DNA of 38,608 bases from assembly GCA_019239875.1 (NCBI GenBank), contig JAFAZI010000073.1, positions 1-38,608 on the forward strand. The letters are read 5' to 3'. This DNA is from Frankiaceae bacterium (GTDB taxonomy: Bacteria; Actinomycetota; Actinomycetes; JAFAQI01). The notes beneath the pieces were generated by a model. It saw nothing but the letters and a program-made list of their open reading frames with translations. It had not been told where the DNA came from and searched no databases. The translations under genes were made by a program, and so were the position numbers. Of this stretch, positions 32,818 through 38,608 are shown piece after piece. How positions within the stretch are numbered: the stretch's first letter is position 1; every line of letters starts with the position of its first letter.

Positions 32818-34539
32818 TCAGTGCGTCGAGGTCGGGGTGTCGGTGGGCGTTGGCGGCGGGCTGTTGCCGGTCGGGGTCGACGTCGGCTTCGGGGACTTCT
32901 TCGGTTGCTGCTTGTCCACGTAGATGTACACCGTGGAGCCGGACGATACGTACGTTGCGCCGGTCGGCGTCTGGCTCACGATCAACCCGTCGTTGCGCCG
33001 GGTGTAGACGGCCGCGGTCCGGATCACCGGATTGAACCCGGCCTGGATCAGCTCCTGGCTCGCCGTCGCCGGGTCTTCGCCGGTCACGTCGGGCACCTTG
33101 ACGTGTGCGTTGGACACGACCAGGTCGACCTTCGTACCGGCCGCGACGATCTGCGTGGGCGCGATGACCTTCAAGACCTGGTTCGCGGGGGCGCTCGAGT
33201 TGCGGGGAATGATCCGCCCGAGCCGCAGTCCATGCGCCTCGAGCACTGCCCGCGCGCCCTCGATGTGCTGCCCGACCAGGTTGAGCGGGATCTGCACGGT
33301 ACGGATCCCGTTCGACACGACCAGGTCGACGGCGAGACCCGGCCGCAAGAAGATCCCGGCGGAGGGGGTCTGCGAGATGACCTCTCCCTTGTTGTTCTTG
33401 CCGGTGTACCGGTACACGATCTCGCCGACCCGGAGCCCCTGACCCAGCAGCGTGGAGCTGGCGTCGTCGAGCGACATGTGTTTGAGGTCGGGCGTCGTGA
33501 GGTCCTTCGTCGAGCTGTTGAGCACGTTGCTTGCGACCACCAGAGCGATGACGAAGACCGCGAAGGCGGCGACTCCCACCAGCGCGTACGCGAGGCCACG
33601 ACGACGTACCGGTGGCTCCCGCATCAACACCGTCGTCGGCGACACCGACGGGATCACGGGGTCATGGTTCGGCAGAACTGGTGTGGCATGGACCGGCTTG
33701 CCCGACATCGCGCGCTCGAGATCCGCCCGCATCTCGGCGGCGGAGGCGTAGCGGTTTGCCGGGTTCTTGGCCATCGCGACGAGGACGATCGCGTCCAGCG
33801 CAGTCGGGACGTCCGGCTCTACGACCGACGGCGGCGTCGGGTCCTCGCGCACGTGCTGATAGGCCACGGCGACCGCGGTGTCGCCGGTGAATGGTGGCGC
33901 GCCGGTCAGCAGCTCATACAGCAGGCACCCCGTCGAGTACACGTCGCTGCGTGCGTCGACGTGCTCACCGCGCGCCTGCTCGGGTGACAGGTAGTGCGCA
34001 GTGCCGACGACCGCCGCAGTCTGCGTCATGGTGGCGCCCGACGCGGTGAGGGCGCGAGCGATGCCGAAGTCCATGACCTTGATCTCGCCGGCCGGCGTCA
34101 CCATGACGTTGCCCGGTTTGATGTCACGATGGACGATGCCGGCGGCGTGCGCTTCCTCGAGGGCCGTGCACACCGCCGCGGTGATCTCCATGGCCCGCTG
34201 CGGGAGCAGCCGGCCCTCGGCCGCCAGCAGATCGCGGAGCGTCTGACCCTGGACGTACTCCATGACGATGTATGGCGTCGTCCGGCCGTCGATCGCTCCC
34301 TCGCCGGTGTCATACACGGCAACGATGGACGGTGAGCTCAGCGACGCTGCTGACTGTGCCTCACGGCGGAACCGGCCTTCGAAGGCCGGATCCTGGTTGA
34401 GGTCCGAACGCAGCAGCTTGATCGCCACGTCACGCCCGAGCCGCAAGTCGCGGGCTCGGCGTACTTCGGCCATGCCGCCGCGGCCGATCACGTCGCCCAG
34501 CTCGTACCGATCGGCCAGCAGCAGTCGTCTAGGGGGCAT
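32818..34539 (-). CDS. pknB: PASTA-domain Ser/Thr protein kinase PknB
   Basis: 573 residues. The N-terminal kinase (about 12-275) is complete: Gly loop IGRGGMAEV, VAIK Lys41, HRDIKPGN at 137-144 and DFG at 157-159, with several Thr in the activation loop (168-180) for autophosphorylation. A juxtamembrane region follows, then a membrane segment at about 316-338 and three extracytoplasmic PASTA domains (345-410, 412-477, 479-543), one fewer than mycobacterial PknB, and a Pro/Thr/Lys-rich tail. PASTA domains sense muropeptides or lipid II. The kinase controls cell-wall synthesis; CwlM is a known mycobacterial target and a CwlM-like gene lies at 748. It is last in the minus-strand rodA-pbpA-pseudokinase-pknB unit. 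Confidence 0.97.
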   Translation of the reverse strand: MPPRRLLLADRYELGDVIGRGGMAEVRRARDLRLGRDVAIKLLRSDLNQDPAFEGRFRREAQSAASLSSPSIVAVYDTGEGAIDGRTTPYIVMEYVQGQTLRDLLAAEGRLLPQRAMEITAAVCTALEEAHAAGIVHRDIKPGNVMVTPAGEIKVMDFGIARALTASGATMTQTAAVVGTAHYLSPEQARGEHVDARSDVYSTGCLLYELLTGAPPFTGDTAVAVAYQHVREDPTPPSVVEPDVPTALDAIVLVAMAKNPANRYASAAEMRADLERAMSGKPVHATPVLPNHDPVIPSVSPTTVLMREPPVRRRGLAYALVGVAAFAVFVIALVVASNVLNSSTKDLTTPDLKHMSLDDASSTLLGQGLRVGEIVYRYTGKNNKGEVISQTPSAGIFLRPGLAVDLVVSNGIRTVQIPLNLVGQHIEGARAVLEAHGLRLGRIIPRNSSAPANQVLKVIAPTQIVAAGTKVDLVVSNAHVKVPDVTGEDPATASQELIQAGFNPVIRTAAVYTRRNDGLIVSQTPTGATYVSSGSTVYIYVDKQQPKKSPKPTSTPTGNSPPPTPTDTPTSTH

Positions 34540-34632: not shown

Positions 34633-35688
34633 TCACGAGCACGTATCGGCCGTCACGGTCAGGTGCACGATGCTGCCGGCCTTGACCCGCATCCCAGCAG
34701 CCGGATCCTGCGCCACGATCGTGCCGCCGGAGTCCTTGCCCAGCTCGCAGACCTTCTCGGGTCGCAAGCCGGCATCCGTGAGCTTCAAGGCGGCCTGATC
34801 GACGCGGAGCTGCGTGACGATCGGCACGGTCACGTCGCCGGCCCCTTTGCCGACGAAACGCAGCAGCGCGCCACCGCCGACCACGACGATCGTGCCGAGG
34901 ACCAGCAGCCGGTTGCGGACCTGCTTGCGGGCCAGCGCCTCCTCCGGGCTCTCCTCGCGCCGCCAGGAAGGTCTCGGCTCCGCTGGTCGCTCCGCGGGTA
35001 CGGCGGTGGCGGGTGCCTCGCCACGCACTGCGGTGGCGAGCGCCAGCGCAGTGCGACCGATATCTGCCGCGTCGAGGTCGCGCGCCGAGCGGCTCGGGCT
35101 GGTAACCGTTGTCACGAACTCTTCGACGTCCGGCGGTGCACTGTCGGTTGACCCACGTACGCAGTCCGCGGCCAGCCGGCCGAGTGCCGCGACGTCGTCG
35201 GTCCGGCTCGCGGTGCTCGCGGGGTCGAAGCCGATCAGAGAGGCGACGCCGCCGGGTCGGACCAGGATCGCGTCAGCCGAGAGCGCGCCGTGCACGATGC
35301 CGGCGTCATGGGCGGCACCCAGCGCGATAGCGATCTGGCCGACAAGGTCGAGTGCGGCCGCGAGCGCGGTTTCGTGGATCAGCCAGTCCGGCAGCGGCTC
35401 GCCACTGACGAACGCCATGACGAGCCAGGTCTCCGCATCGGCCTCGCCGAAGTCGTGGACCTTGGCGATCCCAGGGTGGGACAGGGCGACGAGCCTGGCG
35501 GCGCCGCGGCCGAACCGTTCCCGCCACTCCGGGTCGGCCGCCGGCCCGCCGAAGAAGATCTTGAGCGCAACCGCCCGGCTGACGATGTCGTCGTGCGCCT
35601 TCCACACTTCGCGGCTGTCGCCACCGGAGAGCTTGTCACCGAGGACGTAGCGCTCCGCGTAGATCCGGGCGGACTCGTCGCCCGTCAT
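34633..35688 (-). CDS. PASTA-containing pseudokinase at the pknA position
   Basis: 351 residues from ATG 35688, overlapping the pbpA stop by 4 bp. The N-terminal domain (about 12-225) aligns with bacterial Ser/Thr kinases and keeps the ATP-site lysine K43 (ALKIF) and partner-like residues. The catalytic loop is HGALSADAI at 133-141 instead of HRDIKPGNV, so the catalytic Asp, Lys and Asn are all lost. The DFG motif is GFD (153-155). The Gly loop is LSGGDSREV. It should not phosphorylate. A membrane segment lies at 259-276, and one PASTA domain at 284-349 reads out the envelope. It occupies the place usually held by pknA between pbpA and pknB, and may act as a scaffold or PknB regulator; that is inference. 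Confidence 0.9.
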   Translation of the reverse strand: MTGDESARIYAERYVLGDKLSGGDSREVWKAHDDIVSRAVALKIFFGGPAADPEWRERFGRGAARLVALSHPGIAKVHDFGEADAETWLVMAFVSGEPLPDWLIHETALAAALDLVGQIAIALGAAHDAGIVHGALSADAILVRPGGVASLIGFDPASTASRTDDVAALGRLAADCVRGSTDSAPPDVEEFVTTVTSPSRSARDLDAADIGRTALALATAVRGEAPATAVPAERPAEPRPSWRREESPEEALARKQVRNRLLVLGTIVVVGGGALLRFVGKGAGDVTVPIVTQLRVDQAALKLTDAGLRPEKVCELGKDSGGTIVAQDPAAGMRVKAGSIVHLTVTADTCS

Positions 35689-37148
35689 GGGCACGACAGG
35701 ACGGCACACATGACGGTATGAGCGATCGGGGCGGCAGCGACACCGCCGACCCCGCCGTGCTCGACGAGCACGGCGACCGCGACGGTCGGGTGGGTCGCCG
35801 GCGCGAATGCGATGAACCACGCGTGGGTCGGCTGACCGGGGACGTTCTCGGCCGTACCGGTCTTCGCCGCGACCGGGATGCCGGAGATCGCTGCCGCGGT
35901 ACCGGTGCCCCCGGGCTGCGTGACGCCCTCCATCATCGTGGTGAGCTGCGAGGCCACGCCTGGCGATACCGCCTGGGAGAACGCCTGCGGGCGGGCTCGG
36001 GTCAACACGGATGCGTCCGGTGCCTTCGTGTCTGCGACGAGGTATGGCTTCATGACGATGCCGTGGTTCGCGATCCCGGCCGCGACCATCGCCATCTGGA
36101 GCGGCGTCACCGAATCGCTGTACTGCCCGATCGCAGAGTCTGCGAGCAGTGGCGGGTCCGAGGTCTTGACGTAGTTGCTGTCAGATACGCCGATCGGGAT
36201 GGTCAGGTGCTTGCCGAAGCCGAACGCAGCGGCCTGTTTCGCGATCGCGTCGCTGCCCAGCTTCAGTCCGAGGCCGCCGAACGCCGTGTTGCACGAGACC
36301 TTGAGCGCCTCGGCCAGGGTGATCTGACCGGACCCCGGGCAGGTCTCGCCCTGGAAGTTGGACAGCGTGTGGGTCGTGTTGTTGAAGGTCAGCTTGCTCG
36401 GTGCCGGGATAAGCGGCTGACTCGGCGTGTACTTACCGCTGGAGAGCGCCGTCGCCGACGTGATCACCTTGAACGTCGACCCGGGCGGATAGCTCTGGTT
36501 CACGGCGCGGTTGAGGAGTGGATCGCCGGGGTCGTGCGTGATCTGGTGAAACGCTGCCTGGTCGGTCTTGGTGTTGTGGCCCGAGATCTGGCTCGGGTCG
36601 TACGACGGGTACGACGCCATCGCCAGGATCGCGCCCGTCTGCGGGTTCAGGGCGACGACGGCACCCGCCCGCACGCCGTTGAAGCTCGGCGCCGACGCCA
36701 GCCCCTGGTATGCCGCGTGCTGTGCGTCGGGGTTGATCGTGAGGTCCACCGAGCCGCCCTGCGGCGTCCGGCCGGTGATCTCGTCGGAGATCCGGTGGAA
36801 GAACAGCTGATCCGAGGTGCCGGCGAGCGTGGAGTTCTCGGCCTGCTCGATCCCGGACGACGAGTACACGAGCGAGTAGTAGCCGGTCACCGGCGCGTAC
36901 TCGGCACCGCCCGGGTAGGTCCGCAGGTACTTCAGCGAGTCGTGGGTCTTGACCGACTTCGCGACGCTCTGGCCCGCCACCACGATCGGGCCGCGCTGGT
37001 GGGAGTACTCGCCGTACAGCACGCGGACGTTGTGCGGGTTGGCCCGTAGCGACGATGCCTGGCCGACCTGCACGATGTTGCTGTTGATCAGCAGCAACCC
37101 GAACATCGCGAGGATGGCGACCGCCACCTGCTTGAGCTGACGGTTCAC
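35685..37148 (-). CDS. pbpA: Penicillin-binding protein A (class B transpeptidase)
   Basis: 487 residues from GTG 37148. A short cytoplasmic N-terminus and one membrane segment (about 7-24) lead into the class B PBP dimerisation region and then the transpeptidase domain (about 155-480). All three active-site motifs are present: S224-T-F-K227, S285-C-N287 and K429-T-G431. It cross-links peptidoglycan outside the membrane together with a SEDS polymerase, here RodA encoded directly upstream (4-bp overlap). In M. tuberculosis PbpA is a PknB substrate required for septation. The 4-bp overlap with the pseudokinase downstream suggests a translationally coupled set. Confidence 0.96.
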   Translation of the reverse strand: MNRQLKQVAVAILAMFGLLLINSNIVQVGQASSLRANPHNVRVLYGEYSHQRGPIVVAGQSVAKSVKTHDSLKYLRTYPGGAEYAPVTGYYSLVYSSSGIEQAENSTLAGTSDQLFFHRISDEITGRTPQGGSVDLTINPDAQHAAYQGLASAPSFNGVRAGAVVALNPQTGAILAMASYPSYDPSQISGHNTKTDQAAFHQITHDPGDPLLNRAVNQSYPPGSTFKVITSATALSSGKYTPSQPLIPAPSKLTFNNTTHTLSNFQGETCPGSGQITLAEALKVSCNTAFGGLGLKLGSDAIAKQAAAFGFGKHLTIPIGVSDSNYVKTSDPPLLADSAIGQYSDSVTPLQMAMVAAGIANHGIVMKPYLVADTKAPDASVLTRARPQAFSQAVSPGVASQLTTMMEGVTQPGGTGTAAAISGIPVAAKTGTAENVPGQPTHAWFIAFAPATHPTVAVAVLVEHGGVGGVAAAPIAHTVMCAVLSCP

Positions 37149-38524
37149 CGTTTCACCACCATCGTGGCGAACTCATCGGGTGACTGCGGCAGCTCTGACG
37201 CCGGTTGTCGCGCGGCGTCGCTGATTCGCAGCAGCAGCGCGAGCAGGATCCAGCTGGAGATCAGGCTGGAGCCGCCGTAGGAGAGGAACGGAAGCGTCAG
37301 GCCGGTCAGCGGGATCAGGCGCGTGACGCCGCCGAGCTGGACGAAGATCTGAAGTGCGAACCCGAACGACAGGCCGACACCCAGCAGCTTGCCGAAGTCG
37401 TCCTTGGTGCCGATCGCCGCACGGATGCCGCGCATCACGATCAGCAGGTAGACGGTCAGCACGGCCATCAAACCGGCGAGGCCGAGCTCCTCGGCGATGG
37501 TCGAGCCGATGAAGTCGGTGTTGGCGAACGGGACCAGGTCGGGTCGTCCCTGACCGAGCCCGGTGCCGAAGATCCCGCCGGTCGCCTGACCGAACAGACC
37601 CTGGGCGAGCTGATAGCTGTCGCCCGTGATGTATTTCGGCGCCAGCGGATGCAGCCAGATCTGCACGCGTTCGTGGACGTGGCCGATGAAGTGATAGGCG
37701 CCGAGGGAGCCGAAGAGGAACAGCACGATGCCGATCAGCAACCAGGAGCGACGCGTCGTCGCGACGTAGAGCATCACGACGAAGATTCCGAAGAACAGCA
37801 GACTGGAGCCGAGGTCGCTCTCTCGGGTGAGGATCAGCAGGCTGGCGCCCCACGCGACGAGCACCGGTCCGAGATCGCGGCCGCGGGGCATCGTCATGCC
37901 GGCGACCTTGCGCCCCGCGAGTGCCAGCACCGCGCGCTTGCGGACCAGGTAGCCGGCGAAGAACACCTCGAGGAGCATCTTCGCGATCTCACCCGGCTGG
38001 ATGGAGAAGGAGCCGAACCGGATCCAGATCCGCGCGCCGTTCACGGTGCTGTGGCTGGCGGGGAGCAACGCCGGGATCACCAGGAGGAAGAGCCCCGCGG
38101 CCATCGCGGTGTAGGTCAGCGACTCGAGCTGCCGGTGGTCGCGGATGAAGTAGAGCACCGCGACGAAGCAGATGATCCCGATCACGGTCCAGACCAGCTG
38201 AAGTGGCGCGTTGTGCGTGGCGTGCTTGGTCGTCAGGGTCGCGAGGTCGAGCCGATGGATCAGGACGAGCCCGAGCCCGTTGAGAAAGATCACAGCTGGC
38301 AGCAGCACGGGATCGGCGTACGGCGCGAGCCAGCGAACGGCGAGGTGGGTGCCGATCGCGAGCGCTGCGAAGCCGAGGCCGTCCTGGAGCAGACCGCTGG
38401 GCAGCTTGTTGGTGTAGGCCGCACTGACGGAGGTGAAGGCGACGAGGGTCAACACCACGGCGAAGAGGACGAGGATGAGCTCGGTGGCGCGTCGCTTCTC
38501 GCCCAGGGGAGCGGCGACGCTCAC
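37145..38524 (-). CDS. rodA: SEDS peptidoglycan polymerase RodA/FtsW
   Basis: 459 residues from GTG 38524. This start overlaps the upstream stop by 4 bp (GTGA), like the rest of the operon; TTG 38542 and GTG 38539 are in frame alternatives adding six or five residues. About ten to twelve membrane segments are visible. SEDS signatures include NGARIWIRFGSFSIQPGEIAK, TRESDLGSSLLFFG, YQLAQGLFGQATGGIFGTGLGQG, TDFIGSTIAEELGLAG and LPFLSYGGSSLISSW. The Asp of ESDLGS and the Glu pair in AEELG are characteristic. It polymerises lipid II into glycan with PbpA as partner. The gene corresponds to Rv0017c rodA. Confidence 0.96.
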   Translation of the reverse strand: MSVAAPLGEKRRATELILVLFAVVLTLVAFTSVSAAYTNKLPSGLLQDGLGFAALAIGTHLAVRWLAPYADPVLLPAVIFLNGLGLVLIHRLDLATLTTKHATHNAPLQLVWTVIGIICFVAVLYFIRDHRQLESLTYTAMAAGLFLLVIPALLPASHSTVNGARIWIRFGSFSIQPGEIAKMLLEVFFAGYLVRKRAVLALAGRKVAGMTMPRGRDLGPVLVAWGASLLILTRESDLGSSLLFFGIFVVMLYVATTRRSWLLIGIVLFLFGSLGAYHFIGHVHERVQIWLHPLAPKYITGDSYQLAQGLFGQATGGIFGTGLGQGRPDLVPFANTDFIGSTIAEELGLAGLMAVLTVYLLIVMRGIRAAIGTKDDFGKLLGVGLSFGFALQIFVQLGGVTRLIPLTGLTLPFLSYGGSSLISSWILLALLLRISDAARQPASELPQSPDEFATMVVKR

Positions 38525-38608
38525 GGAGCGGTCACGCACCAAGCGGGTGTCGGCGCCGCCGACGGCTTGATCACGACCCGCTTGCCGTTGCGGTGGGTGA
38601 CCCGGGGG
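38521..38608 (-). CDS. pstP: C-terminal end of the upstream operon gene (probably pstP), partial
   Basis: Reading the minus strand from the window edge gives 28 complete codons, ending GKRVVIKPSAAPTPAWCVTAP and then TGA at 38523-38521. There is no domain in this fragment. The assignment to the PP2C phosphatase pstP rests on position: it precedes rodA in the conserved pstP-rodA-pbpA-pknA-pknB order, and such phosphatases end in low-complexity basic tails. The 4-bp overlap with GTG 38524 supports it being a real coding end. Confidence 0.45.
   Translation of the reverse strand, partial: PRVTHRNGKRVVIKPSAAPTPAWCVTAP

Follow-up and report, generated by a model that had tools for sequence, protein, structure and literature searches.

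A PknA-derived pseudokinase with a PASTA domain between pbpA and pknB in an uncultured Frankiales clade

The window analyzed here is the whole 38,608-nucleotide stretch of a Frankiaceae contig (JAFAZI010000073.1). Toward one end it carries a rodA/ftsW-type gene, pbpA, a kinase-like gene, and pknB on the same strand (Table 1). The kinase-like gene is one uninterrupted open frame located between pbpA and pknB, the position of a PknA ortholog. Its start lies within the pbpA stop codon in an ATGA overlap, which bears out the 4-bp coupling described in an earlier sequence-only reading of this DNA, and pknB follows 93 bases downstream. That reading also described one membrane segment and one PASTA domain, both of which were recovered; the PASTA domain was detected by Pfam with an E value of 4e-10 (39.9 bits against a cutoff of 23.2). 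As likewise proposed, the locus has no intact kinase other than PknB.

Table 1. Genes at the locus and parts of the pseudokinase (window positions)
Feature	Position	Strand	Basis
rodA/ftsW-type gene; contig ends just past it	37145..38542	-	
pbpA, ATGA overlap with pseudokinase start	35685..37148	-	
Pseudokinase gene (pknA ortholog), PASTA-bearing single-pass membrane protein, 351 aa	34633..35688	-	Translation, orthologs, tree, model
Kinase N-lobe, residues 10-97; degenerate Gly loop, alphaC Glu replaced by Gly62	35398..35661	-	Model, alignment
K43, beta3 (VAIK) Lys	35560..35562	-	Alignment
HGALSADA, degenerate catalytic loop; active PknA has HRDxKPxN	35269..35292	-	Translation, alignment
GFD replacing DFG	35224..35232	-	Translation, alignment
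Activation-segment gap directly after residue 157, then alphaF remnant; alphaG gap further downstream	35155..35217	-	Alignment
alphaI helix, residues 207-221, conserved GRTALALA	35026..35070	-	Alignment
Juxtamembrane basic stretch and membrane segment, residues 247-281	34846..34950	-	Alignment, model
Single PASTA domain, residues 286-345	34654..34833	-	Pfam PF03793
pknB, kinase domain intact (HRD, DFG, activation loop), with PASTA domains	32818..34539	-	

Translation and alignment confirmed the catalytic substitutions that had been read from the sequence. HRD is replaced by H133-G-A135, the catalytic-loop Lys and Asn are replaced by S137 and A140, DFG is replaced by G153-F-D155, and the VAIK Lys is kept. 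In addition, Gly62 stands in place of the alphaC Glu, and degeneration extends to the Gly-rich loop (SGGDSREV). The claim that fold length is preserved was wrong, because about 50 residues of the activation segment and alphaG are deleted: relative to active PknA from the same family, the protein lacks about 28 residues of the activation segment and about 23 residues of the alphaG region. A pseudokinase was defined as a kinase fold in which at least one of the beta3 Lys, the HRD Asp, and the DFG Asp is missing, and this protein is one. Because it lacks the HRD, DFG, and activation loop of an active Hanks-type kinase, we call it a PknA-derived pseudokinase and not a PknA kinase.

The Pfam Pkinase score was 30.6 bits, against a gathering cutoff of 31.7, and the NCBIfam model for PASTA kinases (NF033483) scored 131 bits against a cutoff of 450. 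AlphaFold returned a compact kinase-like fold, a membrane helix, and a PASTA domain with a mean pLDDT of 87, a result that indicates compatibility with the kinase fold and is not proof of it, because active PknA sequences were in the underlying alignment. The best PDB match was M. tuberculosis PknA, both by sequence and by fold (4x3f), and structures of the MviN pseudokinase (3otv and 3uqc) ranked 47 and 49 in the fold search.

The relatives of the gene were sought in 12 genomes of the family, among them that of the window (G000). Syntenic full-length orthologs with 40 to 43% identity, no stop codons, and the same deletions were found in three genomes from two other genera (G001, G003, and G008). 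The agreement of four genomes led us to reject an assembly or frameshift artifact. The resulting pseudokinase set is four sequences, all from draft genomes. All four lack the catalytic Asp, Lys, and Asn and the DFG Asp, and all share the activation segment and alphaG deletions. The alphaC Glu position reads G, G, R, and R, and G000 (K43) and G001 retain the beta3 Lys, which is replaced by Thr in G003 and by Arg in G008; the beta3 Lys is thus not a conserved feature of the pseudokinase family. Pfam scored the kinase domain at 20.4 bits in G001 and did not recognize it in G003 and G008, while the PASTA domain exceeded the Pfam cutoff in every ortholog. Active PknA occupies the same place in seven genomes of the family, from three genera, and one match of the contig search (L064) also proved to be active PknA. 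In the remaining genome, G004, which represents a fourth genus of the pseudokinase clade, pbpA is followed directly by pknB, and the roughly 108 bases between them (L058:6037-6146) hold no recognizable pknA remnant.

Phylogenetic analysis placed the gene within the history of PknA. A tree of RodA, PbpA, and PknB grouped G004 with the four pseudokinase genomes in one clade (100/100), within which G004 was sister to G003 and G008 (100/100). In a kinase-domain tree, the pseudokinases were monophyletic (100/100) among PknA-type kinases on a branch of length 1.24. PknB fell on one side of a branch supported at 99/98 and the pseudokinases fell among the PknA sequences, where their exact point of attachment was weak (56/78) because of the long branches. 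We conclude from position, sequence, and tree that the window gene is a PknA ortholog. That the lineage turned PknA into a pseudokinase, as the sequence-only reading had suggested, is upheld by synteny, the tree, and the shared alphaI-membrane-PASTA part. Because the orthologs share their deletions, family-mates are active, and G004 is nested in the clade without the gene, the simplest history is a single inactivation before the clade radiated, long retention, and then gene loss in G004. A profile search of 395 genomes of the class for other PknA pseudokinases gave full-length matches in the four clade members only (about 560 to 577 bits; next best, 149), a search that is not exhaustive, since a dead PknA of separate origin would not stand out with this profile. 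The 17 loci fetched from outside the clade encoded kinases with intact HRD and DFG.

PknA of mycobacteria lacks a PASTA domain, and on that ground the PASTA domain here had been called notable. Comparison within the class indicated otherwise. Of 19 active PknA-type proteins compared across the class, 15 have PASTA, those of the family-mates among them; when the four pseudokinases are included, the domain is present in 19 of the 23 members of the alignment. Moreover, the active PknA proteins of family-mates that were checked by Pfam carry two PASTA domains each, compared with the one found here. Because most active PknA-type proteins in the class carry the domain, we conclude that PASTA on PknA is, on this sequence comparison, ancestral here and not notable, and that the pseudokinase lineage has lost one of two. 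In C. glutamicum, PASTA domains were found by the authors of that study in PknB and PknL only (PMC2784874).

Conservation was uneven along the protein. In sets of pseudokinase and active PknA genomes whose PbpA and PknB are equally diverged, the ratio of pseudokinase identity to active PknA identity was 0.59 (0.52 to 0.67) for the kinase core and 0.95 (0.83 to 1.08) for the alphaI, membrane, and PASTA parts together. The intervals did not overlap, and none of 1,000 bootstraps reversed the contrast. By part, the ratios were 1.00 for PASTA, 0.92 for the membrane segment, and 0.88 for alphaI, compared with 0.64 for the N-lobe, 0.55 for alphaD-alphaE, and 0.52 for the catalytic loop. Because synonymous sites are near saturation, identity by codon position was used in place of dN/dS. 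Codon positions 1 and 2 were 58 to 73% identical, above position 3 and above the fourfold sites (about 44 to 51%), and this suggests that the protein is under purifying selection. Selection now rests on the stretch from alphaI through the juxtamembrane and membrane segments to PASTA, and not on the kinase core. Conservation of this kind is expected if the membrane and extracellular parts do the work that is left to the protein.

The window's genome encodes seven kinase-family genes above the Pfam cutoff besides the pseudokinase, PknB included. The sequence-only reading had advised a search for an intact pknA elsewhere in the genome. No second intact ortholog was found in G000, but an active PknA-like paralog exists on another contig (G000:C127:30998-32008; L124:8624-10030); its catalytic residues are intact, and it matches PASTA weakly. 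Intact PknA-like kinases outside the locus were found in all four pseudokinase genomes (C127 in G000, C96 in G001, C5 in G003, and C116 in G008), and no other PknA-like gene was found in G004. Genus g7 has a distinct set of extra PknA-like kinases beside an active PknA. The C127 kinase adjoins a gene resembling uppP (undecaprenyl-diphosphatase), and two FHA-domain genes resembling fhaA and fhaB lie near the end of the same contig (G000:C127:56966-57674). Because of these FHA genes, C127 may join the right (rodA) end of the window, which would place the PknA-like kinase some 30 kb from the pseudokinase.

We consider it slightly better than an even chance that the PknA of this operon was inactivated once, in the ancestor of an uncultured Frankiales clade, and was kept as a noncatalytic single-pass PASTA membrane adaptor of RodA, PbpA, and PknB. 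The PASTA domain would bind peptidoglycan precursors or fragments outside the cell, the membrane segment and basic juxtamembrane part could dock on neighboring membrane proteins, and the dead kinase fold might serve as a cytoplasmic spacer or phospho-acceptor, with locus phosphorylation presumably carried out by PknB. The adaptor role would be accessory, because one genus of the clade dropped the gene. The broader statement, that this is a PknA-derived pseudokinase family in which a signaling enzyme became a PASTA-bearing membrane adaptor for the elongation machinery, we regard as evenly balanced. Slow decay toward loss, as in G004, would also yield part of the evidence pattern. A functionless relic on its way to loss is the other serious rival, since G004 lives without the gene, and the varied beta3 residue (K, K, T, and R), the falling Pfam kinase scores (30.6 and 20.4 bits, then none in two orthologs), and the long branches fit it. 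Nevertheless, four lineages with near-saturated synonymous sites have neither stop nor frameshift, codon positions 1 and 2 are constrained, the PASTA domain, membrane segment, and alphaI are conserved about as in active PknA, and the place in the operon is kept, so that a relic seems unlikely. An enzyme with migrated catalytic residues, whether kinase or other transferase, might draw on the beta3 Lys, which two of the four orthologs retain. It is very improbable, as that Lys is lost in the other two, the metal-site positions hold no conserved acidic residue, the alphaC Glu is gone, the Gly loop is acidic, and there is no activation segment.

The sequence-only reading had proposed an allosteric partner or decoy for PknB. 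In such a role the N-lobe of the pseudokinase would dock back-to-back against PknB and either activate it or compete for its dimer face. N-lobe dimers do activate PknB (PMC3601408), the MviN pseudokinase dimerizes back-to-back (PMC12599244), and the AlphaFold model retains the N-lobe fold. Of the three PknB residues that make up the back-to-back dimer triad, one, the Arg10 equivalent, is kept in all four pseudokinases. The other two erode: the Leu33 equivalent is V, A, A, and A, and the Asp76 equivalent is kept in G000 and G001 but is Ala in G003 and G008. MviN-type pseudokinases, in contrast, keep their dimer contacts (PMC12599244). Moreover, the kinase core is relaxed, N-lobe identity included, and G004 has lost the gene yet retains PknB. 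Because of the erosion of the triad, this function is weak as a clade-wide proposal, and we hold it to be quite doubtful. It is possible in G000, which keeps two of the three dimer residues and has a conservative change to Val at the third. A further alternative, compatible with the adaptor reading, is that an active PknA-like kinase such as that on C127 took over the job of PknA and freed the old copy. All four pseudokinase genomes have such a kinase outside the locus, but the paralogs share no neighborhoods across genera, their grouping in the tree is not resolved, G004 lost pknA without one, and genus g7 keeps one alongside active PknA. We regard the takeover as a minority possibility, although a C127-type kinase may have eased the inactivation of pknA.

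Among known systems, PknA of M. tuberculosis and other Actinomycetes shares with the pseudokinase its place between pbpA and pknB and its membrane topology and is the closest PDB match, but the pseudokinase lacks the catalytic residues, the activation segment, and alphaG, and it carries a single PASTA domain, which mycobacterial PknA lacks altogether. PASTA kinases (PknB, PrkC, StkP, and Stk1) have the same cytoplasmic kinase fold, membrane segment, and extracellular PASTA, together with a catalytic apparatus that is absent here. Seven families of bacterial pseudokinases (ActPs1-3, GLW, CP1, DYD, and DLHK) are listed in a 2025 review (PMC12599244). In that review PASTA occurs only in one reference title and PknA is not mentioned, and neither there nor in our searches did we find a description of a PASTA-linked bacterial pseudokinase family. 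MviN (Rv3910, ActPs3) is likewise a pseudokinase in peptidoglycan control, with complete motif loss and an activation-loop deletion (PMC12599244). It differs in being fused to a transmembrane flippase and lacking PASTA, whereas the window protein groups with PknA. The dimer contacts of MviN are conserved constraints, and the conserved N-lobe dimer-interface residues that mark ActPs3 erode in the pseudokinases. MviN is, by analogy, the nearest functional analogue of the PknA pseudokinase. In ActPs1 of Actinobacteria each of the three catalytic residues is substituted, and the G-helix is absent from about 60% (PMC12599244), but the family is described with PQQ-type C-terminal domains and not PASTA, a separation that is by description only.

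PknA is a drug target. In M. tuberculosis it is essential (PMC7164672); a C. glutamicum strain deleted for pknA is viable (PMC2784874). The family studied here offers a natural series of three genera with active PknA, three in which it is dead but retained, and one with none, and this series bears on which PknA functions need catalysis. The parts under selection (alphaI, the membrane segment, and PASTA) point to a noncatalytic function of PknA, maybe also in active PknA.

A juxtamembrane Thr for phospho-recruitment showed no positional conservation among the orthologs. The juxtamembrane linker (window 34939-35016, residues 225-250) contains RRPWYD ahead of ERKRVRN in two orthologs and a close variant in a third. 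Thr-acidic stretches occur in the linker at shifting positions and might act as phospho-acceptors for PknB and FHA proteins.
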